Assembly: GCA_023055425.1 (NCBI GenBank)
Contig: JALGPY010000004.1
Coordinates: forward strand, 61,899,718-61,963,717
Direction of reading: 5' to 3'
DNA from: Linanthus parryae
Taxonomy: Eukaryota; Streptophyta; Magnoliopsida; Ericales; Polemoniaceae
Length of the DNA: 64,000 bases
Part shown: positions 14,933 to 52,810 of the stretch, piece by piece
Layout: each line of letters opens with the position of its first letter
Numbering within the stretch: position 1 is the first letter of the stretch
Notes under the pieces: generated by a model
Told to the model about the DNA's origin: nothing
The model's input: the letters and a program-made list of their open reading frames with translations, nothing else
Database searches by the model: none
Position numbers and translations under genes: made by a program

Positions 14933-14950
14933 GGCACAAGAAGGTAGCAC

Positions 14951-22605: not shown

Positions 22606-22720
22606 GCACCAAATGAATCAGACCTGAAACACGGATCACACACACAAAACAGGTGAGTAACAAATATAAACTGAAAAGTAAATCCCTAAAGAGAAAAATA
22701 ATAGCTAATTTATCAGAAGT

Positions 22721-22737
22721 CCCCGGCAACGGCGCCA
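22721..22737 (-). other. Primer-binding site of Athila (tRNA-Asp type)
   Basis: The minus strand reads TGGCGCCGTTGCCGGGG just inside the right LTR, the classic plant Gypsy site complementary to tRNA-Asp. It fixes element orientation as minus. Confidence 0.92.
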
Positions 22738-22743
22738 AAAACT

Positions 22744-24311: not shown

Positions 24312-24624
24312 CCTACTAAAGGCTACGACGATTCGGTGGTGTGCCCTAATTAATGACGGAAAGTCATAATACGGATGGACTTCCCAAGGAAGGCGTGCTT
24401 ATCTGATAAGCAGTTAGAGCGAAAAACAAGGCGGACATGTCACCAGGTGACGTCATAATTGATACGCACAAAAAAATATTCGAGCAAATCCCGGAAAGGG
24501 CAAAACGAGCATTCAAGCCTTGAATAAAAAAAGGGTGGCGGGGGGGGGGGGGGGGGGGGGAGAAACCCTAGCAACATTACAATAATGTTTTAACATTTTG
24601 TTCGAAACAAATACTTGCTATTTT

Positions 24625-29809: not shown

Positions 29810-30423
29810 TGTAGATAGTGCTTTCTAGACACGTAGATCTTAGCCACGTGGCGACCATCCAGCACACCTAGCTGTGCTCCACACACACTGGATCACCAGC
29901 CGCGCTGATCCACGTGGGGGCTGCGAGACAGGGCCCTCGCATACCACCACACGGGACCTGTAGAGACTTAGTGGTTTGGAGGCTAGAGAAAGTCCTGTCG
30001 CGCGCGAGCGACAACCAAGCCCGCGCGCGACCCCTAGTAACTGCTTTGAGATATTTATGGCACGAGCTCCATAAACCCGGTCAACCTCGTAACAGTTTCG
30101 GTATACGCGGGTAACGTGCCGTAACGGTCCCTATATACGCGGACGAACGTGCCGTTGTGGTTAAGCTATTTAAGCCTCCATTAATGGGCGCATTAACCAC
30201 ACTACAACGGTCACATTCTTCGTTATATATAGGATCGTTAACCCTTCCATACAAGGGGAGGATCACCTGAGATACGCGGAAGCTCTGCCAAAATCCTGTC
30301 TCTCTCTCATACAGTGCTATTGCCTTACTCTCTCCCTACGCACAACCTTACTCTTCCTGTGTCTTTTCTATCCTCTAATCTTGGTGTATATTGAATTCTC
30401 TCTCCAGGATTCTCTCGTACACA
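29810..30423 (+). repeat. 3' LTR of Tat-1
   Basis: Preceded by the polypurine tract AGAAAGGGGGCTAA (29796-29809). It ends TCTCGTACACA and is followed by the CTTGT half of the TSD. Confidence 0.92.
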
Positions 30424-30428
30424 CTTGT

Positions 30429-32123: not shown

Positions 32124-33797
32124 TGTTGGAATAGATGCCCTAGAGGCAATCTTTGTAGTATTAACAATGTTTTTTGGCTAGAAATATTCATTGTATTATT
32201 TATGGAGACATTTAATATAATGAAGTCCTTAGATTACAAATGTGTTTGTTTATCTTAAATATCCCTAGTCAATTATAATGATTAATTGGATGATCAATTA
32301 TAGACTAGTATGGGGTTGGATTGATTTGGAGATATCACGATCCAACACATGGGTATACATTAGGAGTAATGACTTATTGGATTGACCCACAACGAGAAGG
32401 CTACATACAAGTTATGTAAAGTCACAAGTGCTTCTCGTAGTGACAACGATATTGTCATCCTTAGACTTGAAGTCACTAGATCCTCTAGTTGCGGAATATT
32501 ATGTTTTGACATCGTCAGATGCTACACCGTGACTGGGTAGCAATAAAGGCGTTAGTCGGACACAATAGGAAGCTAACTTAGAGATTCTAGTGATGTAGAT
32601 AGATTTTTTCTCTCCCACATTACAGGAGCAAATATCCACGGCCACTCGAGGGATGGTGCTTATAGAATGTCTGGCCAGACTCAGATAAATCAATATAGAA
32701 TATTGATGTTATCTGCATGGATAAGATTATTCCCAAGATCAAGAAACTGTGGATTGGATATACGAGTGTGAAATGTATGTCTCGTGTACAATCCGGCTGT
32801 AGAGACAAAGGGATGAGACAATACTTGCACAAGGTTTGTCAAAGTAATGATTATTTTTATTAGTTGGGTGGCATGGATGTGTTGCTAGACACCGCTCCAT
32901 GTTAATAAACGTTATTACCAACTAAGTAGAAACCTATAGGGTCACACGCCATAAGGATTAAACTAGACCTAGGAATTAATTAATATGATTAATTAATAGA
33001 AGGGTCAATATGCAACTACTTGCAAACTTAGTAGGACTAATTTGCAAGTTGAACTAATTCGTGTATGGACATGATTAGGATATGGGCCTTTATACAGTTA
33101 ACAAGGAGTTGTTGGACTACATAAGGACACTCCTAGCTTATTTCTCACACTAATGCTCATAACATATTGAGTGAGAGAAAAAATCAAGGAGAGAACAAAT
33201 ACAAGAGGGCCGAACCCCCTTGTGCCGTCCGCCCCTACCCGTCTGCCAAAGGAAGCCGAAACTCCCTTTGGTCTCCGTTGTGTGATTCTTGTTCCTTCTT
33301 CCACCGGTTGCTAGCACAAGGCGTGGAGGAATCTAGTTCTTTATCCTAGGCGTGGACTAGCTATAGAGACACGAACACAATTTTAAATTTGAAGTAATCA
33401 CATGAGACAAACAAGGTAATCGTTACTTGAACCTTCACTATCATTATGATGCCTCTTCCTGTGATCCTTGATGGTTCTTGTGCGGATCTTATTTGTGTAA
33501 TTTCACTGCCTAACCACTGGCGTAGATATCTAAAATCTACTTAACACAACAGCCAGTTATTATACATCAGCATGCGGCACCAAATACACAGTCAAGGTGA
33601 CTTATCAATCACCAAGCAGTTAACAGATAGCTAATGAGATGTAAAAATCACACCAGCATAATATACATAAATACACTGTAACTGCGAAAACTTAGAGATT
33701 AGATTTCTTCTACCTGAATAGAAAGTGAACAAATTCCAGAATATTGTAACTCGTGAAGAATAATCCCAAACAGCGTAATCCGTTACAAAACCCAACA
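32124..33797 (+). repeat. 3' LTR of Copia-A
   Basis: Begins TGTTGGAATAGATGCC directly after the purine-rich GTGGGAGAC tract and ends ACCCAACA at 33797. It matches the 5' LTR except for a roughly 250-bp block at about 33521-33773 absent from the 5' copy. That block shows no coding potential and is probably a small insertion. Confidence 0.88.
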
Positions 33798-34119
33798 CCT
33801 ATATGCATTCATTGCGACAGCCAATCTGCAATAGGTAGAGCACAAAGCAGTATGTATAATGGTAAGTCTAGACATATACGTCGGAGACATAACACCAGGC
33901 AACTTCTCTCAAGAGGCATTATATCGATCGATTACGTAAAGTGAAAAGAAAACATAGCGGATCCGTTGACTAAAGGTTTATCGAGAGATCTAGTTGCATG
34001 TTCGTCAAGGGGAATGGGACTAAAGCCAATCTCGTAAGAGCTGCACGTAGCGGCAAACCCAACCTAGGTGACTGGAGATCCCAAGAACTAGGTTCAAAAG
34101 GGAAAACCCAACTACCAGT
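33798..34119 (+). pseudogene. Copia-B RNase H C-terminal fragment
   Basis: The sequence encodes the end of a Copia RNase H: IHCDSQSAIGRA (from about 33804), GKSRHIRRRHN, ISIDYVKSKENIADPLTKG and LSRD. It starts abruptly at the Copia-A LTR end, with one frame disturbance near 33893, and is cut at 34119 by Tat-2. The 3' remainder of this element continues at 49379. Confidence 0.88.
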
Positions 34120-34745
34120 TGTAGATACTGCTTTATGACATGGCAGATCTAGGCCACGTGGCAACCATCCAGCACACCATATTGTGCTCCACACACACAG
34201 GATCACCAGCCGAGCTGATCCATGTGGGGGCTGCGAGACAGAGCCCTCGCATACCACTGCACGGGACTTGTAGGGACTTAGTGGTTTGGAGGCTAGAGTA
34301 AGCCCTGTCGCGTGCGAGCCAAGCCCGCGCGCGACCTTTAGTAACTGTTTTGAGAGATCTATGGCACGAGCTCCCTAGACCCGGTCAATCCGGTCAAACC
34401 CGGTCAACCTCGTAACGGTTCCGGTACTCGCGCACCACGTGCTCTAACGGTTCCTATATACTCGGACGAACGTGCCGTTATGGTTAAGCTAATTAAGCCG
34501 CCATCAATGGGCGCATTAACCACACTACAACGGTCACGTTCTCCAGTATATATATATCGTTAACCTTTCCATACAAAGGGGGACACACTGCCATACGCGG
34601 AAGCTCTGCCAAACCTCTGTCTCTCTCTCAGACATTGCTACTGACTTACTCTCTCCCTACACACACCCCTATTCTTCCTGTGCGATCCCTGATCCACTAC
34701 GTACGGTGTACACGGAGGTCTCCCTGCCGGAATCTCTTGTGCACA
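34120..34745 (+). repeat. 5' LTR of Tat-2
   Basis: TGTAGATACTGC...CTTGTGCACA. A TATATATATA stretch near 34549-34558 is a plausible core-promoter TATA region. Same length as and apparently identical to 48753-49378. Confidence 0.95.
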
Positions 34746-34748
34746 TTT

Positions 34749-34764
34749 TGGTGAACCCGACGTG
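34749..34764 (+). other. Primer-binding site of Tat-2
   Basis: TGGTGAACCCGACGTG three bases after the LTR, shared exactly with Tat-1. It has the TGG start expected of a tRNA 3'-end complement; the tRNA was not identified. Confidence 0.75.
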
Positions 34765-34786
34765 AAACTTACCAGCAAAAGCAACC

Positions 34787-37399
34787 ATGTCTCAGGAGGA
34801 CGATGTCAGCAACCGATCACCTTCCACCGAAACTCCCTCGGGAGACGAGGCTCGCCGTACTCCGACGACTCCCGGCGAGGCGCCAACTTTAGAGTCTTTG
34901 GACGCCACTGTCCAAAGTCAGGCCAAAGCTCTCAAGTCTCAGTCCGCGCAGTTAGAACGGATCTTGGCCGTTCTGGGCACCCTTGCGCCAAATCGTCCAC
35001 CAGCCACCGCTATCCCTCAGGGAGGAGGAATCCCTACCGCTCCAGGATTGGGAGTGTCAGCCACGCCTCCCAACTCCCATCTGCAAACTCCACCGTCAGC
35101 AACGCAGCTGCCTTCGGTCCAAGGGTCAACGGCACAAATGCTGCCCCCTGCTGCTCACGCCTCTCAGCCCCCGGCTTTGGCGTCCAACCCAGCTCTGCAG
35201 TACACTCTGCCTCCACCAGCGACAATCTGGGGAAACGCGGGCAGTCAATACACTCCCAATCCTCCGGCGGCATATGTGTCGCCACCGCCTACGGCAACCC
35301 CTCCGCCAACTACCGAGGGAAGCATTCCAGAGTGCATGACGTCTTTGCAGAAGCGCGTGGACTCCATCCTGGCTCATCAGTCGTTCGCGGATACCATCAT
35401 CCCGAAGCTAGACAACGATCCACCCATTCCACGAGAGATCTATCTCATGCCTAACCCGGCGGGGTACAAGGCTCCCAAATGGGATAAGTTCGAGGACGTC
35501 AATGGAAACGCTCATGAGCATGTCATGCGTTTCATCGATGTCATGGGTCCATACGGAGCCGATCCCAAGCTGCTGATGCGAGAATTCCCAAAAACTCTTG
35601 GGAACGTAGCATACAAATGGTACCGAACATTGGAGGCCGGATCTGTGAAAACTTGGGACGACATGGTCCAGAAGTTCTATACCAAGTTCTTCCAGATGGA
35701 AGAAAAGGTGACGATGATCCATCTCTCGCGGATGTATCAGAAACGCGAGGAAGATGGAATCACTTTCATCAAGAAATTCAGAGCGAAATCCTTGGAGTGC
35801 AAGGATCCAATGCTCGAAAGCCGGCTCGTAGAGATATGCCTGCAGTGCATGCGAGATGAATACAAAAGCATGCTGATCAATTTGCAAACACCTACGTTTT
35901 CAAAGCTCATCGAATGCACGATGAACATTGAGCCCATTGTCGAGAGACAGAGAAAGAAGAGCGCTCCAGAACGACCTGCGAGCGGCACCACCTACAAGAT
36001 CGGCAGATTTAGCTACAAGCGGGGACGCGAAGCTGAGGTCAATACAGTTTCGCCCCAGAAGCAAGCAAAAGTTACAAACTTCGACGCACCGCCTCTGCCA
36101 TGCTCGGTGGAGGAAGCGAGCGATCTCTGCAGACAGTGGCGCAAGGACGGCGTCCTGCCACCGCTCGAGAAAGCACCCTCCAAGGAGATGACGAGGGACC
36201 CTAAGTGGTGCGAATACCACGACAAGGTCATGCACCCCACAGCCGAGTGCAAGAAGCTCAGATTCGCGTTCGATCAGAAGATGAAGAACGGTGAACTCAT
36301 CGTCAGCGACCACCGGAAGGATGTGCGCAACAACCCGCTGCCTGCCCATACAGATTCGGGCTCAAAGAGCAAAGAGGTCGCCATGATCTCGATAGTGGAC
36401 TTGGAAGAAGTCGCAGAGGACGATCTGCCCATCATTGCTGAAGTCCATGAAGATGAAGACTACAGCATGGACACGGAAGATGAGCGTGCCGACCGCATGA
36501 AAGGGTCGCATGGCTTCGACAAATTCTTCAACGAGATGAACTTCTCCGAAAAATGCCGAACGGATATGACAAAAGCAATCTTAAGGGTAGCAGAGGACTA
36601 CGAGGAGGACCTCGTGGTCTCCAACGGGAAAGTCATCAGGGCGTCCCGTTCCACAGAAAAGATTATGACCTTTTCTGCCAGCGACAAGAAGACAGATGCG
36701 AGCCACCAGAGGCCCCTGTACGTGACCGCCATCATCAACGGCGTCGAATTCAAGCGAGCATTCGTCGATGGAGGAGCAGCGGTCAATGTTGTTCCACTCC
36801 ACACACTGAAGCTAGCAGGGATCCCCGAGCACAAGGTAGTCAAGCGTCCATCCCCGCTGGTGGGATTCGGAAGCGATTCTAGAATGACGATCGGATGGAT
36901 CCGCTTGGGCGTTCAGATCGGTAAAATCAAGTGCTCGGCGAAGTTCTATGTCATAGACGCGAACACCACATATCACATGATCATAGGTCGGGCCTGGATT
37001 CATCGCTTTGACGCAATCCCTTCGACGGCTCACCAGGTGATGAAAGCTATCTGGAACGACAGGATTGTCGAGATACCGGCCTCAACTAACCCGTTCAACT
37101 TGGACGAAGCACATCTCAGCGAGGCGGTGTGGTTCACCGAGATGGCGGACGAGCAAACACCCGGACCATTCAACCCTACTCCTTTACCTCTCTGGGAGGA
37201 CATCAAGGACCAGTCACCTGCGGGCGTGATGGTGACAAGGGGAGATGCCAAGGAAAAGCCGCCTACACACGAAGAGGCGCCGCGCATCGCATATCATCGG
37301 AAGAACGTGTACACTCTGAAGAGGATTGCAAAGCATGACCCCGAGGGTAAGGAGATAGAGAGCTTCTACGCCAACGGGAAGAAATGCTATCGCATATGA
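34787..37399 (+). CDS. Tat-2 gag-protease, 870 aa
   Basis: Starts at the first ATG after the primer-binding site. The first 190 residues are Pro/Ser/Ala-rich and low-complexity. A retrotransposon gag domain follows at about residues 215-385 (PKWDKFEDVNGNAHEHVMRF, AYKWYRTLEAGSVKTWDDM). A zinc-binding C-H-H-C region (CEYHDKVMHPTAECKKL) lies near residue 475. The aspartic protease is near residues 640-760, with catalytic FVDGGAAVN and flap-side IIGRAWIH. Asp-Gly-Gly in place of Asp-Ser/Thr-Gly is seen in Tat/Ogre proteases. The frame ends at UGA 37397-37399, and the same frame stays open beyond it into pol, so gag-protease and pol are one frame split by a single stop. Confidence 0.93.
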   Translation: MSQEDDVSNRSPSTETPSGDEARRTPTTPGEAPTLESLDATVQSQAKALKSQSAQLERILAVLGTLAPNRPPATAIPQGGGIPTAPGLGVSATPPNSHLQTPPSATQLPSVQGSTAQMLPPAAHASQPPALASNPALQYTLPPPATIWGNAGSQYTPNPPAAYVSPPPTATPPPTTEGSIPECMTSLQKRVDSILAHQSFADTIIPKLDNDPPIPREIYLMPNPAGYKAPKWDKFEDVNGNAHEHVMRFIDVMGPYGADPKLLMREFPKTLGNVAYKWYRTLEAGSVKTWDDMVQKFYTKFFQMEEKVTMIHLSRMYQKREEDGITFIKKFRAKSLECKDPMLESRLVEICLQCMRDEYKSMLINLQTPTFSKLIECTMNIEPIVERQRKKSAPERPASGTTYKIGRFSYKRGREAEVNTVSPQKQAKVTNFDAPPLPCSVEEASDLCRQWRKDGVLPPLEKAPSKEMTRDPKWCEYHDKVMHPTAECKKLRFAFDQKMKNGELIVSDHRKDVRNNPLPAHTDSGSKSKEVAMISIVDLEEVAEDDLPIIAEVHEDEDYSMDTEDERADRMKGSHGFDKFFNEMNFSEKCRTDMTKAILRVAEDYEEDLVVSNGKVIRASRSTEKIMTFSASDKKTDASHQRPLYVTAIINGVEFKRAFVDGGAAVNVVPLHTLKLAGIPEHKVVKRPSPLVGFGSDSRMTIGWIRLGVQIGKIKCSAKFYVIDANTTYHMIIGRAWIHRFDAIPSTAHQVMKAIWNDRIVEIPASTNPFNLDEAHLSEAVWFTEMADEQTPGPFNPTPLPLWEDIKDQSPAGVMVTRGDAKEKPPTHEEAPRIAYHRKNVYTLKRIAKHDPEGKEIESFYANGKKCYRI

Positions 37400-40300
37400 A
37401 GGTGCGCGGGGACGTCCTCACACGGGCATGGGGATGTCCCTGGGCAAATCAATCAAATCGAGCAAGTTGCGCTGACAGAAGAGCCAACACAGGGCACTCC
37501 AGACGAGAAACTCAAAGAAGCGCCCGAATGCATGGAAGACAGGCCAAGACCACAAAAGCAAGAGCTAAAGGAAGTGTTCCTCAGCCCGAACGAGGAAAAG
37601 AAAAGGCCAGTCTTCCTGAGTGCGGACCTCACAAGCGAAGAGGAACAAGGACTGCTGCAGCTCCTAACTGAATACAAGGACGTGTTCGCATGGGAATATG
37701 ATGAGATGCCGGGTCTGGACACGAGCATCACCATGCACCGTTTAGACATCATCCCAGGGTCTAAACCGGTCAAGCAAAGCATCAGAAGCTTCAGGCCAGA
37801 GCTCAACGTAAAGATCAAGCAGGAGATTGTCAAACTCCTAGACGCCAAGTTCATAGAGCCAAATCACCATCCCACATGGTTGGCCAACATCGTGCCGGTG
37901 GTGAAGAAGAACGGACAGCTCCGCATCTGCGTGGACTTCCGAGATCTTAATCGCTTCTGCCCTAAGGACGATTTTCCACTGCCTAACATCGATTTGCTCA
38001 TTGATTCAACGGCAGGCCATCGCATGTTCAGTTTCATGGACGGCTTCAGCGGGTACAATCAAATCAAGATGGATCCCGAAGATGCAAGGAAAACTGCATT
38101 CATCACTCCCGTGGGGGTATTCAACTACACGGTAATGCCATTCGGTCTTAAGAACGCAGGCGCAACCTATCAGCGGGCCATGATGGCTCTATTCCACGAC
38201 ATGATGCACAAAGAAGTGGAATTCTATGTGGATGACCTGGTAGTCAAATCCAAGCATGAAGCAGATCACCTTGCAGACCTGCGAAAGGTGTTCAACAGAT
38301 GCAGGAGCTTTCAACTGAAAATGAACCCCATGAAATGCGCATTCGGCGTGACCTCGGGGAAGTTTTTGGGATGCGTGGTCCATCGCCAAGGGATCGAGCC
38401 TGACCCTGCGAAAGTTTCAGCCATCACCAGCATGACGCCACCTCACAACCAAAGTACCTTGAAAACATTCTTGGGAAAATTGTCATATCTGCGGAGATTC
38501 ATCCCAGCAATCGCCGAAATCACATGCTGTTTCAGCACTCTTCTCAAGAAGGACGCCGCGTACAACTGGGCTCCTGATCACGAAGCCGCATTCGAAAAGC
38601 TAAAGGAGCTACTCACATCCCCAAAGATAATGATCGCGCCTCAATTGGGATCACCGCTTCTGCTATACCTTACATCGACAAGGAAATCTATAGGAGCACT
38701 CTTGGCTCAGGTGTATGAAGGCCAAGAGAGGCCCATCTATTACATCTCCCGCATTGTGCAGCCCGCTGAATCAAGGTACACAGACATCGAACGTCATTGC
38801 CTTGCTTTATTCTTCGTGATAGAGAAGTTGAGACACTATTTTGCATCACACAAAGTAGTGGTGGTCACCAAAAGCGACCCCATAAGATACCTGCTAACTC
38901 ACACTACTCCGGGCGGGAGATTGGCGAAATGGTACATGACCATCTCTCAATACGATATCACATGCGTAAAACCGAGAGCAATCAAGTCGCAGGCGGTAGC
39001 AGATCTGTTGGCACAGTTTCCCGACAACAGTCACGAACCCGTGATCGAGGAAGAGCTCGAAGGCCCAGAAATCTACGCGATCGACGTGCCCTATTGGACC
39101 CTCCACTTCGACGGTTCGTCAACCAGAAAAGGCGGAGGCATCGGGATAGTCTTGACAAAGCCAGACGGGGAAGTCATACAGATGTCCGCAAAACTCAACT
39201 TCGCAGTCACGAACAACGAGGCGGAATACGAGGCTCTTATCGCGGGGCTCCGTGCGGCGAAAGCTCTGGAAGTGAGCAACTTAACAGTTATGGGAGATTC
39301 CAAACTGATTGTTAAGCAAGCCTCGGGCGAATATGGTTTAAAGGAGATCAACCTCCTGTCATACCGCACCCTAGTGCAAAAGCTGATGCAGCAATTCTGC
39401 GACGTGAAATACGAGCACAAGCCCCGAGCGGACAACAGGCATGCAGACGCCTTAGCAACTCTAGGATCTAAGGTCAGCATAGACAAATGCCCCGCGAGGA
39501 TTTCCATCGAAGTGCGAACGTCGTCGGCATTAACGGAAGATGTGTGCGACGACGAACACATGGATGACGCAGACTGGCGAAAAGCAATCCTGCAAGCTAT
39601 TGCGAAAGGCACCAGCAGCGAAAGTTGGGCACTCACGAAAGGATACTGCATCCACGACAACACCCTTTACTACAAGGGTCCTGGAGGAATACTCATGCGA
39701 TGTGTCTCCGAGCAAGAGGGACAACAGCTGTTAGAAAAGATTCACCAACACGCTTGCGGAGAAAGCGAGGTGTCAATCTACAGGAAAGCTCAGAGATATG
39801 GCATTCATTGGCCAAGCATGTCAACAGCTGCAGCCCTGATACAAGGGAAGTGCGAAAGTTGCGCACTAATCAAAGATTCTCTACTCATCGCTCTAACCGA
39901 TGACGACACAGATTGGAGGAAGCCATTGTTTGAATTCCTCACCCAGGGCACCGTACCCGAATCGAGAAAAGAAGCCGACAAATTGAAGAGGAAAGCGTCT
40001 CGATATGTGGTTCAGGAAAACCTGCTTTGGCGAAGAGGTCACGAGGGCAACTTGCTGCGATGCCTAGACGGCAGGGAAGCGCAAGAAGTCATGGACCTTT
40101 CTCATCAGGTGGAACACCAGGGAGGTGCGAAATTATGCAGACAACTCCTCTCAATCGGATACTTCTGGCCCACGATGGAAGTCGATTGCCGCACCAAGGT
40201 GCGACGCTGCCAAGAATGCCAATTCAAAGGGAACCTAGTGCACGCTCCCGCCGTGGATCTACATGCATTAGGGACGCCATGGCCATTTCACACATGGGCT

Positions 40301-41137
40301 TTGGACTTCATCGGCCCCATCCGACCAACGTCACATGGGAACCATTTCATTCTCACCGCAACTGAGCTGTTCACCAAATGGGTGGAAGCAATACCACTAA
40401 AGACGGCAAACGCGCTGGCTGTGGTTAACTTCATCCAGGAAAACATCGTATGCAGGTTCGGAATCCCAAATACCATTCTTTCAGATAACGGTACTCCTTT
40501 TGTTAATCGCCAGGTAGCTACGAAACTCGCGGATTACAATATCAGGCAGATATGCGCCACCCCCTATTATCCAAAGGGAAACGGACAAGCCGAGGCGACT
40601 AACAAAACGCTGTTGAGAATTCTGAGCAAAATGGTCGCAGATGACCACAAGAAGTGGGCCGACTCTCTTAACATAGCTCTGTGGGCCTACAGAACTTCTC
40701 CAAGGACACCCACAGGGGCCTCGCCATTTCTACTATGTTATGGGGCCGAAGCTGTAGTACCTGCGGAGGTCATAGTTAATTCGGCTAGGCTGGGCTTCCA
40801 TGCACTCTATGAAAACCAACGCGATCATGATTTAGTCTTGCTGGAAGAAAAGCGAGAACAAGCCAAAAGGACTAACAAGCGGTACCAAGAAAGAATCGCT
40901 CGCGCCTATAACAAGACAGTCCAGCGACGGGATTTCGCAGTTGGCGACCTGGTCTTGCGCGCATCTGACCACTGCATGCGAGAAGCAACTCACCCAAAGT
41001 TCGCAGCTAATTGGGAAGGACCCTTCGAAGTCACAGAAGTCTTCGATAGCGGCTACTGCAGCATACGAAGGTTGCACGGCACAACCTCAACTCCAAGCTC
41101 AGTCAACATGCGCTGGATCAAGAAGTACTATCCTTGA
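37400..41137 (+). CDS. Tat-2 pol: RT, RNase H, archaeal-type RNase H, integrase
   Basis: Open from just after the gag UGA; the first ATG in frame with a good pol start is 37532 (1201 aa from there). RT has YVDD at residues 232-235 of that count. The Gypsy RNase H follows, then a second, archaeal-type RNase H starting near residue 524 (LHFDGSSTRKGGG, TNNEAEYEAL), diagnostic of Tat. A repeated zinc-binding module precedes the integrase core, whose catalytic residues are D925, D985 and E1021 (35 residues between the last two, as expected). The C-terminal domain includes DFAVGDLVLRAS. All catalytic residues are present and there is no internal stop. Confidence 0.95.
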   Translation, partial: RCAGTSSHGHGDVPGQINQIEQVALTEEPTQGTPDEKLKEAPECMEDRPRPQKQELKEVFLSPNEEKKRPVFLSADLTSEEEQGLLQLLTEYKDVFAWEYDEMPGLDTSITMHRLDIIPGSKPVKQSIRSFRPELNVKIKQEIVKLLDAKFIEPNHHPTWLANIVPVVKKNGQLRICVDFRDLNRFCPKDDFPLPNIDLLIDSTAGHRMFSFMDGFSGYNQIKMDPEDARKTAFITPVGVFNYTVMPFGLKNAGATYQRAMMALFHDMMHKEVEFYVDDLVVKSKHEADHLADLRKVFNRCRSFQLKMNPMKCAFGVTSGKFLGCVVHRQGIEPDPAKVSAITSMTPPHNQSTLKTFLGKLSYLRRFIPAIAEITCCFSTLLKKDAAYNWAPDHEAAFEKLKELLTSPKIMIAPQLGSPLLLYLTSTRKSIGALLAQVYEGQERPIYYISRIVQPAESRYTDIERHCLALFFVIEKLRHYFASHKVVVVTKSDPIRYLLTHTTPGGRLAKWYMTISQYDITCVKPRAIKSQAVADLLAQFPDNSHEPVIEEELEGPEIYAIDVPYWTLHFDGSSTRKGGGIGIVLTKPDGEVIQMSAKLNFAVTNNEAEYEALIAGLRAAKALEVSNLTVMGDSKLIVKQASGEYGLKEINLLSYRTLVQKLMQQFCDVKYEHKPRADNRHADALATLGSKVSIDKCPARISIEVRTSSALTEDVCDDEHMDDADWRKAILQAIAKGTSSESWALTKGYCIHDNTLYYKGPGGILMRCVSEQEGQQLLEKIHQHACGESEVSIYRKAQRYGIHWPSMSTAAALIQGKCESCALIKDSLLIALTDDDTDWRKPLFEFLTQGTVPESRKEADKLKRKASRYVVQENLLWRRGHEGNLLRCLDGREAQEVMDLSHQVEHQGGAKLCRQLLSIGYFWPTMEVDCRTKVRRCQECQFKGNLVHAPAVDLHALGTPWPFHTWALDFIGPIRPTSHGNHFILTATELFTKWVEAIPLKTANALAVVNFIQENIVCRFGIPNTILSDNGTPFVNRQVATKLADYNIRQICATPYYPKGNGQAEATNKTLLRILSKMVADDHKKWADSLNIALWAYRTSPRTPTGASPFLLCYGAEAVVPAEVIVNSARLGFHALYENQRDHDLVLLEEKREQAKRTNKRYQERIARAYNKTVQRRDFAVGDLVLRASDHCMREATHPKFAANWEGPFEVTEVFDSGYCSIRRLHGTTSTPSSVNMRWIKKYYP

Positions 41138-41204
41138 CTTCTCTTATTTCATACGTTTTATGATAACGTTGCTTAGTGTCTCATGTGGCTACGATTGACG
41201 CAAT

Positions 41205-41312
41205 CTCCTCTCCCATATGAGAGGATTGTAATCCTATCTCTCCCATATGAGAGTGTTATAATAAAAGAATTCTCCCAAATGAGAAGTTCATATTTCTAGC
41301 CGTTTATATTGC
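41205..41312 (+). repeat. CTCCCATATGAGAG palindromic words after pol
   Basis: Three related words (CTCCCATATGAGAGG, CTCCCATATGAGAGT, CTCCCAAATGAGAAG) spaced about 35 bases apart just downstream of the integrase stop. Tat-1 has the equivalents at about 7924-8004. Confidence 0.75.
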
Positions 41313-41344
41313 TCTATTTAAGTTGTTATTACTGTTAACAATGA

Positions 41345-42370
41345 TTTATCTGCTGCAATAGCAGCAAATACAAAAGCGATCTTAATTGATCATCAAAGCC
41401 TATCTCTTACGATAGCAGCAAATATAAACGCGATCTTAATTGATCATCAAAGCCTATCTCTTACGATAGCAGCAAATACAAACGCGATCTTAATTGATCA
41501 TCAAAGCCTATCTCTTACGATAGCAGCAAATACAAACGCGATCTTAATTGATCATCAAAGCCTATCTCTTACGATAGCAGCAAATACAAACGCGATCTTA
41601 ATTGATCATCAAAGCCTATCTCTTACGATAGCAGCAAATACAAACGCGATCTTAATTGATCATCAAAGCCTATCTCTTACGATAGCAGCAAATACAAACA
41701 CGATCTTAATTGATCATCAAAGCCTATCTCTTACGATAGCAAACGCGATCTCAATCGATCATCTAAAGCCTATCTCTTACGATAGCAGCCAAACGCAAAT
41801 GCGATCTTAAATGATCATCAAAGCCTATCTCTCACGATAGCAGTCAACACAAATACGATCTTAATTGATCATCTAAAGCCCATCCCTTACGATGGCAGCC
41901 AATGCAAATGCGATCTTAAGTGATCATCCAAAGCCTATCTCTCACGATAGCAGCAAAATACAAAAACGATCTCAATCGATCATCTAAAGCCTATCTCTCA
42001 CGATAGCGGTTTACACAAATGCGATCTTATATGATCTTCTTAAGCCTATCTGTTACGATAGCGATTTATACGCAAAGTGATTTTAGTTGATCACCCAAGC
42101 CCGTCTGTTACGATGGCAACGTAACTGCAGAACCATCTTGCTAGATCTCCTAAAGGTCTATCTGCTGCGATAGCAATTTATGCGAGAAACTATCTCAAGC
42201 AATTCTCTAATAAAGCCTATCTTCTATGATAGCAATTCGCACCACTCAACGATCTTAATTGATCTGTTAAAAACTATCTGTTACGATAGCAAAGTTGGGA
42301 ACGTGATCTCATACGATTTACAACTGCAAGCTCATCCGCCAAGATGGCAAAGCTGCGAAATTACGATCTC
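41345..42370 (+). repeat. 54-bp tandem repeat array in Tat-2
   Basis: Seven near-identical 54-bp units start at 41376, 41430, 41484, 41538, 41592, 41646 and 41700, followed by about ten progressively diverged units to about 42370. Each unit has two short inverted repeats, GATCTTAATTGATC and CTATCTCTTACGATAG. Such arrays 3' of pol are known in Tat-lineage elements (for example Retand) and can seed satellites. Loss of homogeneity toward the right suggests recent amplification at the left end. Confidence 0.9.
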
Positions 42371-43778
42371 GAATGATCTAGTGAAACATCTGCGAATTGA
42401 CATCGCATGTGTGGAATCATTACATGGCATTATGCAAGGCAAAACAAGCCGAAACGCATGCGAAATTGTATTTTGTTGCAAAGAGAGCAGATAATACAAA
42501 AGCTATATATCATTATGAGTCAAATGACTTACAATTTATCTATCTAGATAGCAGCTTACAAGCGAAAAGCTCAAATCTAACTACGCAGCCAACATGGCTT
42601 ACAATACATTCGAAAAATGGCTGGTAAGCCAGAGATGCACTAGGGAACTCTCGGCTAAGAAAAGAGAGAATCCACCGGTCCTAACACCGGCAGTGCAGTA
42701 CGCAGATCTGCGGCCATAGATCTATAGCAAAAGGGATGCTGCCGCGAAGAGATCAACTTGTCATTCGCCACATCCCTAGCAGCAAGGTCAGGGATGCGAT
42801 ACGCCCAAGACCCCGAGGAATGACAAAAGCCTCCGTCTGATCAAGATAGGCGCCGGAGGAGCTTCCTGTACCGACAGATGCTACTCTGCAAAACAGGCGA
42901 AGCAGTCATTCCTCTGGTGATGGACTCCTTGTCATGTTGGACAAGGGCATTGACGAGCACCCCGACCTCACAAATGTGAGGGCGACGGATTCTTCCCTGG
43001 AGATTCTGAAGAAGAATTCCGCCATTCATTACGAGACGGTAGCACGGTCACTTCGGTGCTGCACCTCGCCACGAGGCGGCCGGAAACATGACCTGCACAC
43101 ATAATACACGAAAAAATTTCTTCGAACACACATGAGGTATTATCTGCATCCTCTTTATGATGGTTATAAACAGCAATAAGCCTCATAAAGTGGATCTTGG
43201 AAACTATTTCTATAGCACAAAGCGCAAACTCAGGATTCAAAACTTGAAGTTGCCATGAATCAACGAAAAACAAGCGTTGAAGCCAGCAGTCGTAAGGACT
43301 CACGGCAAAGCACATGTTTGGGATGAAGAACCCAAATGGCAAAGACAGGGTTTATATAGACCCTGTGGAGACTCTTCGGTTGCCTAAGATGAGTCAGCAA
43401 AATTCAAAAAGAGGGTAAGTTCAATCACTTACGCCTTGAAAAGCGGTAACAATCAATTACCCTACTAAAGGCTACGACGATTCAGTTGCGTATCCTAATA
43501 AATGACGGATAGTCATGATTCGGATGGACTTCCCAACGGAAGCGTGCTTATCTGCCGAGAAATTAGCGCGAAAATCAAGCAGAAAATCAATTGCTGATGT
43601 CATAATTGGATATGCACAGAAATGTCCAATCAAATCCCAAAAAGGGCAAAACGGGCAAACTCATTGTTTGTTGTTAAAAAAAAAAGGGGGAGAAACCCTA
43701 GCAATATTACATTAATGTTTCAAAACGTTACATTAATGTCTCAGCTATTTTCCTGTTTTCCTTTCAAAATTCGAAAAG
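42371..43778. other. Tat-2 spacer between tandem array and antisense gene
   Basis: No recognised gene. The 43342-42968 interval on the minus strand is open (about 124 codons) and resembles, in translation, the Tat-1 interval 9442-9080 (shared PYDCWLQRL, PEF.LCAIEI). No family is recognised, so coding status is undecided. An A run followed by GGGGG lies at about 43676-43690. Confidence 0.5.
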
Positions 43779-46700
43779 TCAAAACAAATTCTTGATTAAG
43801 GAATCTTGGGGCTCGAACTGCTCGCTCAGCTTCTCCACTTGTTTCACTTCTTGCTTCAATTGCTCGCACTTGGCATTCATTTCGTGATACAGCTTCAAAG
43901 CTTCATCAACCTTTTGCTTTTGCTGCTCCACCTTCTGCATCTCAGCTGCGAGATTCTGGTGACCGAGATTCAAAGTTACAGCTGCGCGAATCAGTGTAAC
44001 TCTGTCCTTGAGGAATTTGAAACCAAGTCTGCCTTGGACTTTGAACAGGAGATTTTGGCACATGCCACACAGCAATTCAGCACTCTGGGCCGAAATGGTC
44101 GCAGGTGTAGCCGCAGACAGCTGCTCCAGTATCCAGATGGCTTCAGTAAGGAATAACCTCCTGTCAAAAGGTCCGATCTCCAGAGATCTCACAAACGATC
44201 GGGGGTATCTGAGACGCATTCGAACCACCCAGTCTACATCGGTTTGCTTCAAACCTGAGACATCAAAAATGGTTATAATGTCAGAACTCGCAAGCAAATA
44301 ATGCGACGTGCGAACGGTAAATCTTTACTTACCAGTGCCTTCCAGAATTTCATGAAGAGAAGGGATGCGGGCCACTGGGTTGTTCGAAGACTGCCCTCGC
44401 TCCATGGCTCTCCTATCAGCTGCGAGCTCCAACCTCTCATAGTTAGGAGGAAGAGTGTAGGCCGCACCAGCTGCGACTACATTCCCAACCTGCGAGCCCC
44501 AAATGCTCCACGCAGGAATAGATGCTTCTGGCTCAGTCATCGCCGGAGGAGAAGGGACAGCCGAAGTCGCTGGGCGGAGGACACTCCCAGATGCGAAAAC
44601 ATTAGCATCACTTGTCCTTTCTTCCTTACCACCGGTACGAACACCTTCGTCCATCGGCACAGCATCAGCTTCGACATCATCGGAGAGTTCGATGACATCC
44701 TCGAAATGCTCACTTGCGTGTCCAGCGGCCGCGACGGGCTTCTCGGTATGGGAGCTCGAAATTGGAACATGGGATGCAGAAGGCTGGCTTCTCTGCTCCA
44801 GCTCAGGTTCCTCAGCATGACCTGCGATACCAAATGCGATAATGTGAGGTAACTTGTGTTATAAGTTATTTCGCTATCTTTACTAAAGCTAAGAATAAGC
44901 ACCTCCACGCGAAGGTGGGATTGAGGTATCCTCATCGTACACTAGGGACGTGGAACCGTGCCCTATCAGTGTATCCTCACTAAGCAAATCTTTAAGAGAA
45001 GCGTGACCTGGGATGCGAGTAAACCAGTCATGATTTTGCCTCAAGTGGCTACAGCCTAGTATGCGCATATCACTCAAAATAATTACCTGAGGGTTCTCCG
45101 CATTTGCTTACCAACCAACGGCGAATGTCAGGCTTTGACACACCGTGCTTTAACGCACCCACAATTACATCCCTATAAGTAACTGCGAGATTGAAGATCT
45201 CACCTTTATCGCCACCTGCGATCTCTGCGAAGTCCGCCTGGACTTGCTCTAGCTCTGCTGCATCCTCTCCGGGAACCTCATCTTCCTCCTCCACATGAGG
45301 AGCCACTTCTTCGGGAAGCTCGTCTTCCTCGCCAACTGGACGCACTAAGTCGTCAACATGCTGCTCCTCGAGGCTCCGCTGTTTCACACGCTCGAGCTCC
45401 TCTTCCTCTCGCTGCCTTCTTCTTTCAGCAGCCTCCGCGGCTGTCTTCCGGGATTCAGCAAGAACATCCTCGCTTATAGGATCATCTGAAATGCCAGAAT
45501 GGGCATCTCTCTTTTGCCTCTTGGCCACAAGACCACCAACGGCTTCATCATCATCATCTGCGAATACATAATTGGTTCAAAGAAAAGAACTGCAGAGAAG
45601 TCAGGATAAAATGCAAGGAGATGCGACGGAAGTACCTCCTGATTCTTCCTCGCACATCACAACTGTTGCTTCTTCTTCTTCATCACTTGCCTGGGGCTCC
45701 TGTCTCTCTTCCTCCTCTTGGTTGAATGGAACGAAAGTCTCAACTGCGAGATCTTTTCGCACTTTGCTGGGCATACGACCCTTGCCTTTGTCCTTGATGG
45801 AAAGGGACCTCACCGGGGGAGAAGCTGGAGCACTCCTAGGAGAGGAAATCGTAATTCCCTTTTGCCTAGGTCTCTTCACTCTCGGCGCCGCAGTCGCTGG
45901 AGGGGACGGGTCATCTCTAGGAGGAGACGGAGCCGGAGGGTTATCTATCAGCGAGTCAGCAAAAGTGTTCATGACTCCGCGAACCTTTGTTTCGACCTCG
46001 GCATCCATCCTCCATGCTAGCCGGTACGACTCCCCCTTCCTTCTGGTGGCAACAATGGTGTCCACCAGCGATTTGGAGCGATCGCCAGCTGCGAACCTCC
46101 GCACATGACACTGAAACAATACAGAACGAAGAGCATCAGCGAAAGGAAGAATCAAAAAGCTTAAAGCACACAGGGAAATTGCTTACCTCAGCAAACGCTT
46201 TGCTATATTTGATGACCTGCGCGTCACCCTTCTTGATTGCGTCGACTTGCTCCTTCAAAATGAAATCAGGGCACAAATGATTCTCGCGGTCCCACAGCGA
46301 GTAGCAACCATACTCCGACTCGCTCAAACTGCAATTGGGGCGAAACAGAAAAGAGTTTCTCTTGATCAAGGGGGCCCTTCCTGGCTGCGCCGCCGCCTCC
46401 GTCTCAATCCTCGTTTGCTGGGCAACCCAGTATGCGAGCCAGTTCTGGGAACAACCACCTTTGCGAGTCCCCGCAGGCTGCTCAAAGGGAAGATTGCTCA
46501 TGAAGACCGTCTTGCACTCCTTTGTCAGCAAACGTTTGTAGCACCCTCTGAAAATAGACTGGGGCCAGATCGATGGGGCCACCGCATCGAAACCAAACTG
46601 AGGAGAGACCCGAGTGGGGTCAACATCCACTGTAAGCCTTTCATACCTTGGCGCGAGCTCACGAATATGCTCTGCAAGGGCAGGAAGGGAACCTCGCAGA

Positions 46701-48067
46701 CACCAACAAAAGAACTCACGATAGCGCTCGTGGAAATGCGGCCCCTTTTCAAAGAGAAGGTCTTCTGACAAGACCATACCTTTGGAAGGGTATAGCTTTG
46801 GGAACCACCGCACATTCTCAACACGTGTGGCATAGGGCCTGGCAGTAAACTCCTTTCGTTTGTCGCATATCAAACTCCAAGTGCACTTGGTGTTGCTTGC
46901 TCCAAACCATCTCGCAGCTCTTCCGCTGTTGCGCGCTTCTGTCTCGCCTGGGGGACACCACTTATCAAGTGGGAGGGGAGTTGGAGCATAAGACGGCCAG
47001 CGCTCGAAAACCCACATTGTCAAAAAGCTGATATTGACAAAGGTCAGAACATCGAGGCGGCCACGTGATTCCCTCATCGCCAGAACCAGCTGATCCAGCC
47101 TGTAATATAGCGTGCCCAAAACCAAGGGTCCGAGTGCGACTCTCTGGCCAAGAGCGAGCCTCACGGCAAGTGGCAGCACATGGTAGAAGACCCCGTCATG
47201 GGGGTGACCATCAATCAGATACCTCGACAGCCAAGCACAGAGAAAGGCACAAAGGGTCAAATGATAACCCTTGCCCTCTACATAATTCTCGGCCTCCGGG
47301 TTCTCGCTCAAAAGCTTCTTAGTAATGCTGCTGTTCGCATAGTCTCGGAAGAAGTACTGCAACCACTTGTTCCAGGTATTCTTCGCAGACGTATCCACCA
47401 GCTGCCAGTTCGGAAGAGGCTTTGTAGTGGTCCACCGAGTGGAGATTTTCTTTACCTCTGCTAAGCACTCCTCCATCTGCGCGTACAAGGCCATTTCCGC
47501 AGATGTCCTCAAGTGACTCAAGGGGTCCACCTCGCCCATGGGGGAAAGCTCATACAGAATTTGAACGTCCTCGAGCGTGGGGGCAGCCTCGAACTCAGCA
47601 AAATGAAACGTGTGAGTCGCGGGCGAGTAACGGGACAGAAGGTCTAGAAGCATGGACTGATCCAACTTCACGGCAGCACCCTTCATAGCACGGATAGCAA
47701 AGAAAATGCCAGCTTTATCGAGAGTCTCGGCGTGATGATCCAACACGTGGTCGATCCACTCATCCATATAGTCCAATTTCTGGACAAACGCCTGAGTAGA
47801 AATCGCAGTGTATGGGAAGTGCCCATTCTCGATCCCCAATCGAACCACATCCTCGGAGCCAACCAACTCGAGCAAGGCTGAGTTAACTGGGCGAGTCAGT
47901 GTCAGCAATCGTTCAACTGGAACAGCATCAGGCATCCTCTTCGCCTTCACCCTTGCATGATAAAAATCCTTCCCACCCAGAAAGGGGGCTTTACGCCACA
48001 GAGCCTGCGGAAGTTCCGGCATCTCTTCATCTTCCTTGATGGGTCTGGTTACTCTTGTCTTGGCCAT
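43779..48067 (-). CDS. Antisense spliced PMD protein gene inside Tat-2, six coding exons, about 1298 aa
   Basis: Exons on the minus strand: 48067-46187, 46110-45636, 45557-45087, 45007-44903, 44821-44333 and 44254-43779 (1881, 475, 471, 105, 489 and 476 nt). The five introns are 76, 78, 79, 81 and 78 bp, all GT-AG; the first is phase 0 and the rest phase 1. The sum is exactly 1299 codons with only a terminal stop. Residues about 1-560 hold an aminotransferase-like plant mobile domain (ALWRKAPFLGGKDFYHARV, MWVFERWPSYAP, RWFPKLYP). Residues about 628-785 include a basic RVKRPRQKG and an acidic run. Exon 3 is Glu/Arg-rich and helical (ERRRQREEEELERVKQRS). Exon 6 has a helical region ending in a coiled coil. 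Role unknown; PMD proteins occur as host nuclear factors and as TE cargo. Confidence 0.88.
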
Positions 48068-48069
48068 TC

Positions 48070-48327
48070 CTGCGAAAGGGCAAGAAAAAGGGGGGAGAAA
48101 TACCACACTTCAGTTTGAATTTTGGAATTCGAGATCTATGCAAAGGAAAGCAAACAGTTCCGGTACCGATTTCAGAAATTGGGGAGTTGCAAGATCCAAT
48201 ATTGTTGAAAGATTAAAACGAAGCGGGTTCAAAGATCAAAGCCTCTTCACAAATTTCATGGATTTACAGATTCAACGCAGTTCAAGGCAAACACTGGTAT
48301 TTTAAATCAAAAGTAAACGAGGCCAAC
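48070..48327 (-). other. Probable 5'-UTR intron of the antisense PMD gene
   Basis: On the minus strand a donor AACAAG|GTTGGC (intron starts 48327) and a pyrimidine-rich acceptor CTTTCGCAG (intron ends 48070) lie just upstream of the start codon at 48067. Tat-1 keeps both sites (29380 and 29011). Splicing is predicted, not observed. Confidence 0.6.
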
Positions 48328-48483
48328 CTTGTTTCCTTGAAGCTTGCTTGGATATACACAATTGGAGAATACGATTTGCAGTTCTGAACTGGTGATTGAT
48401 TATCTGGATCTGCTCTCGAAGATCTCCGGGTACCATTCACTTTAAGAGAAAGAAGTGATGCTTTGCAATAATGGGATACAAGG

Positions 48484-48592
48484 TATTTATCCAGAAGAAT
48501 GAAGGGTTGCGTCCCTTCAGTAGTCGAATCGCAACCGTCACCGTCGTATCGCGCAATCACAGGACGGGCTGACGTCACGCCTAAAACCCTAA
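48484..48592 (-). promoter_or_regulatory. Candidate antisense promoter of the PMD gene
   Basis: On the minus strand there is ATAAATA at 48490-48484 within GGATAAATACC. A TGACGTCA palindrome (bZIP/TGA-type site) lies 80 bp upstream at 48570-48577. An AAACCCTAA telo-box-like word, read on the plus strand, is at 48584-48592. Tat-1 conserves the TATA-like box (29539-29545) and TGACGTCA (29626-29633). The TATA box is about 160 bp upstream of the predicted 5'-UTR intron donor. Confidence 0.5.
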
Positions 48593-48738
48593 AGGTCAGA
48601 CGGCACGACTCTAGGGGTTTTAGGTCATAATGACACGCACGGGGGCTGAACTTACCCGTATTTGAATTGGTGCGTGGCGACGACGCGCATGTTGGTTTCC
48701 GCGCATGGAAGCCTATACAGCTATGAGCCTTCACGCGC

Positions 48739-48752
48739 AGAAAGGGGGCTAA
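48739..48752 (+). other. Polypurine tract of Tat-2
   Basis: AGAAAGGGGGCTAA immediately before the 3' LTR, the plus-strand priming site; same sequence in Tat-1. Confidence 0.85.
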
Positions 48753-49378
48753 TGTAGATACTGCTTTATGACATGGCAGATCTAGGCCACGTGGCAACCA
48801 TCCAGCACACCATATTGTGCTCCACACACACAGGATCACCAGCCGAGCTGATCCATGTGGGGGCTGCGAGACAGAGCCCTCGCATACCACTGCACGGGAC
48901 TTGTAGGGACTTAGTGGTTTGGAGGCTAGAGTAAGCCCTGTCGCGTGCGAGCCAAGCCCGCGCGCGACCTTTAGTAACTGTTTTGAGAGATCTATGGCAC
49001 GAGCTCCCTAGACCCGGTCAATCCGGTCAAACCCGGTCAACCTCGTAACGGTTCCGGTACTCGCGCACCACGTGCTCTAACGGTTCCTATATACTCGGAC
49101 GAACGTGCCGTTATGGTTAAGCTAATTAAGCCGCCATCAATGGGCGCATTAACCACACTACAACGGTCACGTTCTCCAGTATATATATATCGTTAACCTT
49201 TCCATACAAAGGGGGACACACTGCCATACGCGGAAGCTCTGCCAAACCTCTGTCTCTCTCTCAGACATTGCTACTGACTTACTCTCTCCCTACACACACC
49301 CCTATTCTTCCTGTGCGATCCCTGATCCACTACGTACGGTGTACACGGAGGTCTCCCTGCCGGAATCTCTTGTGCACA
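48753..49378 (+). repeat. 3' LTR of Tat-2
   Basis: 626 bp, apparently identical to 34120-34745. It ends TTGTGCACA and is followed by the CCAGT TSD. Confidence 0.95.
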
Positions 49379-49889
49379 CCAGTGCAAATAAATAAATCAC
49401 TCACATGGAAATAAAGTTTCCAGATCCATTCCTAGGACGAACATCGAGTGATAGGGACAAGGTAAGAAAAATGCTTTTAATGACACCATACCTTAAAGGG
49501 GTTTTAAGGAGAGTATGAAGGATACTAGTTATGTGTCTCACCTATGTGAGTAGGAACGGGCCGGTTCTAGGAGGATGATGTGGCTATCTCCTCTAAGTCT
49601 ACTCATGAAACCAGGAAAGTGTTTCAAGGCCGAAATGAACACAACCATGAGAACTAAATTTGGATAGGTCATTAATTGTGTAGTTGCTATTGACTAGGTA
49701 TACAACGCGGCAAGTAGTTCAAGGCGTTTCGTTCACTGACAAGCAAGTATACCCTATAGTATCTCACTAAGAAGAAAGTTCAAAGTCTATGACTACTTTC
49801 TCTTAAGCGATTAATGAATTTACTTGAGATAGTTAATCACTAACTGGCGTTTTCATCTTTAACGCTAATTTTTCATTCATGTGGGGGAT
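49379..49889 (+). other. Copia-B 3' untranslated segment and polypurine tract
   Basis: Continuation of Copia-B after the Tat-2 insertion. No frame is open. It ends with the purine tract GTGGGGGAT (49881-49889) directly before an LTR start. Confidence 0.75.
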
Positions 49890-51000: not shown

Positions 51001-51016
51001 AATCAAATTTAGCACA

Positions 51017-52810
51017 ATACTCTTAGTTTCTTGAAGGAGAAGTTTTCCAGAAAGCTGGCTTCATGGATGTCTTCTTTTTTAAGTCAAGCTGGTAAGGAAG
51101 TTCTCTTGAAGTCTGTGCTTACAGCCCTCGCAGCTTACACCATGTCATGTTTTTTGCTTCCTAAAAAAACCTGCTATGAGCTCTCACAGATCATGGCTAG
51201 GTTTTGGTGGGGAGGGAGTAACTCTGGTGATAAAAGATTTTTTTGGAAGAGTTGGGGTTCTTTATGCAGATCCAAAGACTTGGGAGGAATGGGTTTTAAA
51301 AATCTTCACAATTACAATCTTGCATTGATTGCAAAGCAAGCCTGGAAACTCTGTGATGAGTGTAATTCTCTCTTCAAAGATGTGTTCAAGGGTAATTTTT
51401 TTCCCAGTTCTTCTTTCTGGAGTGCCCCCATTCCCAATAACAGCTCTTGGGTATGGAGAAGTTTATGTGAAGGCAGGGAGATCCTTACAAAAGGCACAAG
51501 GTGGAGAATTGGTGGAGGTGATTCTATAAAGATTTGGGAGGATCCTTGGCTTCCAAGAAGAGATGATTTTCTGGTTCACTCAAGAAAGCCTGACAATTGT
51601 GAAATTGCAAAGGTGAGTGAGCTCATTAATCATAATGACAGAAAGTGGATTGAAGAAATGGTTCTTGGCTTATTTTCTGAAGAGGAAGCAAGACTGACTC
51701 TTTCTCTTCCTGTGGGTAGAAGAAGCTGCAAGGATAAACTGATCTGGAACTTCTCTTCTGATGGTTCTTACAAGGTCAGTTCAGCTTATAAATTTCTTGA
51801 AGAGGGGGTTGATGAGTTTTTTGCTTCTCCTAGCTCAAAGCCACTGTGGAAGACGTTATGGAAATTGAATGTGCAGCCAAAATTGAAGAATTTCTTTTGG
51901 AAATTTCTTAGTGGTGTCTTACCAGTCAAAGCTGCTTTGAAGATTAAAGGTATTGTTGTGGATGATGTTTGTTCTTTATGTGGCAATGAGATAGAGAATG
52001 AGCTTCACGTTCTGAAAAACTGTTGTGAAGTGCAGCTTGTCTGGAAGCTCTCTTCTCTTAGGCTCTCTAAATCTAATCTTCATGCAAACACTCCTTTGGA
52101 ATGGTGGAATCATGTTTGTGATCTTGCTGAATCTTCCCCTGATCCAGAGTGGTTCTTAAGTCTTTTTTTGAATTTGTGTTGGAGTATTTGGAAGGCTAGG
52201 AATGACTGGCATTTTAATGTTATTAAATGGAGGCCTGACCAAATAGTTTCAAGAGCCATGAGTGCTTTATTGGAGTTTTCAGTTCACAATGTTAAACCAC
52301 CTCTTTCTGGTGGTGTTGTGGTTCAATCTGCTCCTCCTCACCTCTCTGCTCCTTTCAATGTCTTCACTGATGCTGCAGTGGATTTTGCTGGTAGAAGAGG
52401 TGCTATAGCAGCTGTATGTATTGATTCTAATGGGCTTAATCTGGGTTCTATGCATTCTATTATTAATGGAGTGGTTGATCCTGCTATATTAGAAGCTTGG
52501 GCAATCAGGGATTCTCTTTTGTGGTTATTGATAATGGGTGGTCCTCTATCTCCTTGTTCTCTGATTGTGAATTTGTGGTGAAGCAGCTCAACTCAGATCC
52601 AAATACATGGCATTCTAAGATTTTCCCTCTGCTTGATGACTGTATATCTTCTAAGGGTGTTCTTGTAAGTTGTATTTTTTCTTTTATCCCTAGATATTTC
52701 AATTCCTTGGCCCATGATCTGGCTAAGAATTGCTTGAACCTTGTTTGAGTTCTTGTACTTTGGCTTATGCCTTGTTTTAATGCAATGCTTAAGTTTTCTG
52801 GTGAAAAAAA
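51017..52810 (+). mobile_element. 5'-truncated L1-type LINE with 16-bp TSD
   Basis: AATCAAATTTAGCACA occurs at 51001-51016 and 52811-52826, flanking a block that ends in an A-rich tail (52804-52810). The block starts within the C-terminal part of a LINE ORF2, lacking the endonuclease and RT core. Truncation, A tail and a 15-17-bp TSD are classic target-primed reverse transcription signs. Confidence 0.93.
51031..52748 (+). pseudogene. LINE ORF2 C-terminal region (zinc-binding RVT and RNase H domains)
   Basis: A 516-residue frame (51031-52581) carries the post-RT region (FWWGGSNSGDKRFFWKSW, KDLGGMGFKNLHNYNLALIA), a zf-RVT domain near residues 265-345 (WKTLWKLNVQPKLKNFFWK, VCSLCGNEIENELHVLKNC) and the start of an RNase H fold (FNVFTDAAVDF). 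A frameshift near 52505-52530 moves the RNase H end into the frame of 52497-52748 (LFSDCEFVVKQLNS, FNSLAHDLAKNCL). The conserved RT catalytic motif is upstream of the truncation, so it is inactive. Few lesions suggest a young insertion. Confidence 0.9.

Follow-up and report, generated by a model that had tools for sequence, protein, structure and literature searches.

A predicted six-exon antisense plant mobile domain gene conserved in two LTR retrotransposons of Linanthus parryae

How can a gene interrupted by several introns be kept by an element that passes through RNA each time it is copied? The question is raised by a 64,000-nt stretch of the Linanthus parryae genome (assembly GCA_023055425.1, contig JALGPY010000004.1, positions 61,899,718–61,963,717; hereafter, the window), in which a long terminal repeat (LTR) retrotransposon of the Tat clade, element A, carries, between pol and its 3' LTR and in the orientation opposite to gag-pol, a predicted multi-exon gene for a protein with a plant mobile domain (PMD). 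A homologous copy, located at about 24.6–29.0 kb in an older element, B, extends a preliminary description of the window that had reported the gene in element A. Our preferred reading, to which we assign a probability of roughly 0.6, is that this antisense gene, conserved in the two elements, is expressed from a predicted promoter of its own to give a nuclear accessory protein, which would favour expression or spread of the element.

A splice-chain search of the minus strand (48067–43779) reproduced the structure first described, namely six coding exons and five GT-AG introns of 76–81 bp (76, 78, 79, 81 and 78 bp), with a coding sequence of 3897 nt, that is, 1299 codons including the stop, or 1298 residues. 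All five introns contain at least one in-frame stop on read-through, and introns and exons differ in base content (GC 0.39 and T 0.38 in introns; GC 0.53 and T 0.24 in exons). The exons are as follows.

46187–48067, minus strand: coding exon 1, 627 aa, PMD (Pfam, splice-chain search)
45636–46110, minus strand: coding exon 2, basic motif KRPRQK (splice-chain search)
45087–45557, minus strand: coding exon 3, acidic, with AKRQKR (splice-chain search)
44903–45007, minus strand: coding exon 4 (splice-chain search)
44333–44821, minus strand: coding exon 5, the least constrained of all (splice-chain search, dN/dS)
43779–44254, minus strand: coding exon 6, predicted helices and long coiled coil (splice-chain search, structure prediction)

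The assignment of exon 1 to the PMD was borne out by a profile search with PF10536, in which 643 aa of the exon 1 reading frame matched at residues 122–498 (E 5.8e-27; 95.2 bits against a curated cut-off of 34.9). The corresponding reading frame of element B also scored above the cut-off (83.3 bits).

Constraint on the antisense gene in two copies

The antisense gene of element B (24625–29008, minus strand; now a pseudogene, identified by alignment to the gene of A) can be aligned across the entire length of its counterpart, and lifts the gene model beyond chance because it keeps the frame, the intron positions and the codon-position bias. All figures on conservation and on the ratio of nonsynonymous to synonymous substitution rates (dN/dS) given here compare these two copies. 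Conservation of the introns in other copies and dN/dS below 1 had been set in advance as tests of the gene: in this one copy, all five intron positions are kept, with every GT donor and all but one of the AG acceptors retained, and dN/dS is 0.139 (95% bootstrap interval 0.111–0.171), falling to 0.081 in the PMD, values that are approximate because dS is about 1.36 and only two copies are compared. Identity is 0.727 across 3877 exon sites and 0.596 across 381 intron sites, all five introns being alignable; taken singly, introns 1, 2 and 5 are at 0.47, 0.51 and 0.59, and introns 3 and 4, which are not under exon level, at 0.68 and 0.72. The indel runs in exons measure 36, 18, 2, 84 and 3 nt, four of the five being multiples of three. 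Changes in exon 1 fall at codon positions 1, 2 and 3 in the numbers 117, 76 and 290 (each of 627), and an excess at the third position was likewise seen in exons 2, 3, 5 and 6; in the short exon 4, of 35 codons, the three counts are 11, 4 and 12. For exons 1 to 6, dN/dS amounts to 0.093, 0.224, 0.082, 0.208, 0.324 and 0.176, respectively, against 0.244 to 1.692 when these exons are translated in the remaining five frames.

The low dN/dS suggests selection for the protein, and not for an antisense RNA alone. A purely RNA-based function, in which the antisense transcript would pair with the sense genomic RNA and tune silencing, the reading frame being incidental, is therefore unlikely. Such a function would draw on the complete overlap of sense and antisense units, on antisense RNA regulation proposed for such elements (PMC7264820), on phased small interfering RNAs that the available portion of PMC10673657 reports from PMD genes of tea, and on a second conserved block in the window that has a minus-strand TATA-like motif and no codon periodicity (see below). 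It is hard to reconcile with the dN/dS of 0.139, the frame-keeping indels and introns that have diverged much more than exons, although RNA and protein could both matter.

The gene of element B is broken by two in-frame stops, a frameshift of 2 nt and the loss of one acceptor. In simulated neutral decay at 2.3% change (half the LTR divergence of B), 3.6 stops were expected, and the probability of two or fewer was 0.30, so the lesions fit a gene that was intact when B inserted, a history that is allowed by this comparison and not proved. The broken copy could also mean that the constraint is a relic from a host or a helper, carried by an ancient passenger that is now decaying in these elements; loose constraint on exon 5 and the acidic linkers, and the comparison of two copies, would agree with this. 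Given an intact gene in the very young insertion A, and lesions in B that fit decay after insertion, we regard a relic as rather improbable. On the sequence evidence, the antisense gene is older than the split of the two element families and has been constrained at the amino-acid level in both, which points to an old selected accessory gene and not to a fresh host capture.

The upstream region and the carrier element

A promoter-like region had been ascribed to the gene, and a conserved block with motifs was indeed found at about 48070–48750; the non-coding first exon and 5' untranslated region (5'UTR) intron that we also read in it, both likely, are additions to the earlier account.

48070–48327, minus strand: probable intron in the 5'UTR, with donor AAG/GTTGGC and, directly ahead of the ATG, acceptor CGCAG/GA (motif coordinates, conservation drop)
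48328–48752, minus strand: promoter-like block, with a first exon predicted to be non-coding (mostly 80–92% identical to B)

On the minus strand of this block in A lie a TATA-like GGATAAATACC (48492–48482), TGACGTCA (48577–48570) and TTTAGGGTTTTAGG (48593–48580), which we take to be promoter motifs; the latter two are kept in B. Inward from the polypurine tract, identity between A and B runs from 0.80 to 0.92 until about 48420 and then drops to 0.72, 0.69, 0.63, 0.55 and 0.63, with many gaps, and the acceptor-like CGCAG/GA directly before the ATG is common to both elements. The region upstream of the ATG is thus likely to comprise a promoter, a non-coding exon and a 5'UTR intron. In a broader comparison, the 3' LTR with its adjoining flank (48256–49391 versus 29310–30436) is 81.6% identical between the elements despite the near-saturated synonymous sites of the gene, which may reflect strong cis constraint or a recombination swap.

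The element that carries the gene is organized as follows.

34120–49378, plus strand: element A, Tat-clade LTR retrotransposon, 15,259 bp (LTRs 626/626 identical, target-site duplication)
34120–34745, plus strand: 5' LTR (LTR match 626/626), followed at about 34749 by a TGG-starting sequence resembling a primer-binding site (PBS)
34787–37399, plus strand: gag-protease open reading frame (ORF), ends in TGA (Retrotrans_gag in Pfam, translation)
37400–41137, plus strand: pol ORF with reverse transcriptase (RT), RNase H, second RNase H and integrase (Pfam order; RT motif YVDDL)
41358–42062, no strand assigned: 54-bp tandem repeat array right behind pol, 13.1 copies (repeat detection)
48753–49378, plus strand: 3' LTR (LTR match 626/626)

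In line with the earlier description of identical LTRs and a perfect target-site duplication, the LTRs match at all 626 positions and the duplication is the same on both sides (CCAGT at 34115–34119 and 49379–49383); by its sequence, element A is a recent and apparently intact insertion. It had been labelled a Tat/Ogre element, of which the first half holds. The Tat clade (the Ogre/Retand grade) is defined by a second RNase H domain that lies between the first one and integrase (PMC6317226, in its available portion), and A fits there because its pol has RVT_3 (570–687) between RT_RNaseH (418–518) and the integrase zinc-binding domain (892–941). Ogre elements are described as having a gap of about 274 bp between gag-pro and pol (PMC6317226), whereas in A the two share one frame parted by a single TGA (37397–37399); the LTR of only 626 bp is a further difference from Ogre. 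Complementarity of the PBS to tRNA-Arg is another criterion for Ogre; in A, a TGG-starting PBS-like sequence was read. As to the subclade, the antisense position appears Retand-like and the PMD Ogre-like. The TGA, in so young an element, could be passed by readthrough or splicing, or be a fresh mutation.

Predicted product, persistence and precedent

What would the protein be? Searched in full against Pfam at E up to 10, it matched the PMD and six weaker families, five of which fall on the C-terminal helices; Transposase_28/TRP28 (PF04195) was not among these matches, and a DUF7745 match inside the PMD part (E 0.0018) lies under its cut-off. The basic motifs KRPRQK and AKRQKR, in exons 2 and 3, are both kept in B, exon 3 is acidic (D+E = 44 of 157 residues), and exon 6 is modelled as helical with a long coiled coil (predicted local distance difference test score (pLDDT) 74.6; predicted template modelling score 0.48). 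From the basic motifs, the PMD and precedent, the product is likely to be a nuclear accessory protein.

The antisense layout itself suggests an answer to the opening question, inferred from the replication cycle of LTR elements. The sense strand would serve as genomic RNA, in which antisense splice signals go unread, so that every cycle would pass the introns on together with the rest of the gene; an antisense mRNA that has been spliced, having neither PBS nor LTR ends, would offer no template for copying. An element copied through RNA could thus keep a spliced, separately expressed gene. Transcription would be driven by an internal promoter next to the polypurine tract, begin at about 48455 and run through the non-coding first exon and 5'UTR intron; the protein would then perhaps interfere in the nucleus with the host PMD silencing proteins MAIL1/MAIN. 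This interference is the step we prefer and, like expression and nuclear location, it is a prediction. Host MAIL1/MAIN silence transposable elements (PMC5418596, available portion), the PMD protein of A being a prediction. A still stronger proposition, that antisense placement is a device for keeping an intron-bearing, host-style gene and that the PMD protein rivals MAIL1/MAIN in an arms race, is doubtful as a whole. If the layout does shield introns, it would explain how a spliced gene is kept through RNA passage; if the PMD counters host PMD silencing, the presence of the same domain on both sides, an old puzzle, would be tied to one mechanism.

Several observations weigh against our preferred reading. 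Synonymous sites are near saturation in the only two copies compared; the antisense gene evolves faster (dN 0.188) than the integrase C-terminus (dN 0.044 over 217 codons, including 5 with gaps and 1 that is a stop in B, with dS saturated and only 146 of 300 bootstraps usable); and exon 5 is loosely constrained (dN/dS 0.324). Upstream, the 5'UTR intron is likely and not proved, and conservation there could stem from a recombination swap, given that the LTR and the upstream block have diverged less than the synonymous sites. The structure model of the PMD exon is unusable (pLDDT 31.4). Neither exon 1 nor a 300-residue PMD piece had a match at E 0.001 among the candidates listed in a protein-database search that used 5-residue words and scored few or limited candidates. 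Viral contigs gave no match to exon 1, and none of the 119 pattern matches to the two-copy exon 1 alignment was confirmed. The same protein database does contain plant retrotransposon proteins, as pol matches reached 61–62% at best, in Camellia (4408 of 7954 scored candidates); a pol alignment run against the viral contigs yielded 28 pattern matches, 0 confirmed, and a sequence search of the PDB returned four matches that are not meaningful (best E 0.72).

A gene of this general kind has precedent in the antisense ORFs of Retand and Grande, the PMD of Ogre and the PMD-A of Gypsy elements. In the available portion of a 617-genome survey (PMC11963269), every recent Retand cluster has antisense coding regions in the interval from pol to the 3' LTR. 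Such antisense ORFs, including those of Silene Retand and rice RIRE2, resemble the arrangement in A, and Retand shares with A tandem repeats behind pol and recent copies whose two LTRs are identical; the role proposed for these ORFs is regulatory and DNA-related (PMC11963269). The coding content differs, TRP28 (found in 97% of Retand clusters) standing against the PMD of A, as do the gene models, since the surveyed ORFs are unspliced ones, called with ORF Finder, and the gene of A has introns (PMC11963269). Element A is also larger than the surveyed Retand elements, with an internal region of 14,007 bp against 7,380–12,869 and a pol-to-3' LTR distance of 7,615 bp against 2,933–6,566 (PMC11963269), its LTR length being inside the surveyed range. 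As for the domain, PMDs are present in 57% of Ogre elements, which are likewise of the Tat clade (PMC6317226, available portion), and were the extra domain seen most often in a separate screen (PMC9289625, likewise). The PMDs of Gypsy retrotransposons, which like A encode the domain themselves, form their own clades, PMD-A1 and A2 (PMC5418596), and captured PMDs have already been speculated to be anti-silencing tools in MULEs (PMC5418596). A close likeness by description is maize Grande gene23, which is antisense, conserved over copies, and reported to have its own upstream promoter and a nuclear product (PMC7264820), the last two being predicted for A; the available part of that account mentions neither PMD nor splicing. 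The same 2020 review urges study of antisense and spliced transcripts (PMC7264820).

The preliminary description had called the gene uncommon. This stands for its splicing, as a limited literature search turned up no antisense gene with several introns that is retained through retrotransposition, in which the apparent novelty lies, and it does not stand for its other traits, antisense regions being common in Retand and PMDs in Ogre (PMC11963269, PMC6317226, in their available portions). Tat antisense ORFs have so far been catalogued unspliced; the two copies described here represent a complete intron-bearing gene that appears constrained at the amino-acid level, and the function of such antisense genes is now directly testable.

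Two further explanations concern what a PMD does and where it came from. Host PMD proteins have a part in silencing (PMC5418596, PMC7156037, as far as their available text goes), so the protein of A could instead limit the element, for example, by recruiting PMD-type silencing to sibling copies, in self-restraint or protection of the host; selection on a selfish element should favour help unless copy number harms the host, and we hold such restraint to be quite unlikely. The weakest account, a recently captured host PMD gene riding as a passenger, has host-like introns and layout and the known capture of genes by LTR elements (PMC7264820) to recommend it, but its recency is largely refuted by the same constrained gene at the same place in B, with near-saturated synonymous sites and low dN/dS, and by the separate clades of Gypsy PMDs (PMC5418596, available portion), so that we reject it as very improbable and find the earlier notion of a host-like passenger unsupported.

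Other features of the window

A conserved non-coding block at 43100–43466, downstream of the PMD gene, reaches 77–86% identity between A and B per 100 columns at its strongest and contains a minus-strand TATA-like CTATATAAACC; it is perhaps a second antisense promoter. A 124-aa minus-strand ORF (42968–43342) has a TATA-like motif upstream and a frame that is open in B too. We rejected it as a second antisense gene, as it showed no codon periodicity and no frame stood out (differences at the three codon positions in 43120–43312: 11/65, 11/64 and 8/64).

In element A behind pol and in element B (41358–42380 and 8061–8459), repeat units carry short palindromes, GATCTTAATTGATC and CTATC...GATAG. 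We did not count those of the 54-bp units as evidence of hairpins, because the search pattern itself demanded pairing, and dropped the hairpins as a candidate after a sequence-only extraction gave no clear covariation by eye.

6570 to about 30423, plus strand: element B, LTRs at about 6570–7192 and 29810–30423, 95.4% identical (window self-comparison)

Element B, whose target-site duplication (CCTGT/CTTGT) matches at 4 of 5 positions, keeps its LTRs, a PBS-like sequence and the antisense gene, gag-pol being gone from just past the PBS to the integrase C-terminus. It may be a non-autonomous derivative that retained the antisense gene, a deletion after insertion being equally possible. Its PBS-like sequence (7193–7230) is identical to that of A. 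B is interrupted by a nested LTR element (9566–24316) with its own target-site duplication, CCTAC, at both sides. The LTRs of this nested element are 96.8% identical, and its minus strand encodes gag and pol as well as a Transposase_32 (PF20167) ORF at 13421–14983. Direct repeats at 1–1300 and 32206–33496, 89.7% identical, enclose B and may be the termini of an older element around it. Outside both elements, a plus-strand zf-RVT (PF13966) ORF at 51013–52581 is probably a fragment of a long interspersed nuclear element.

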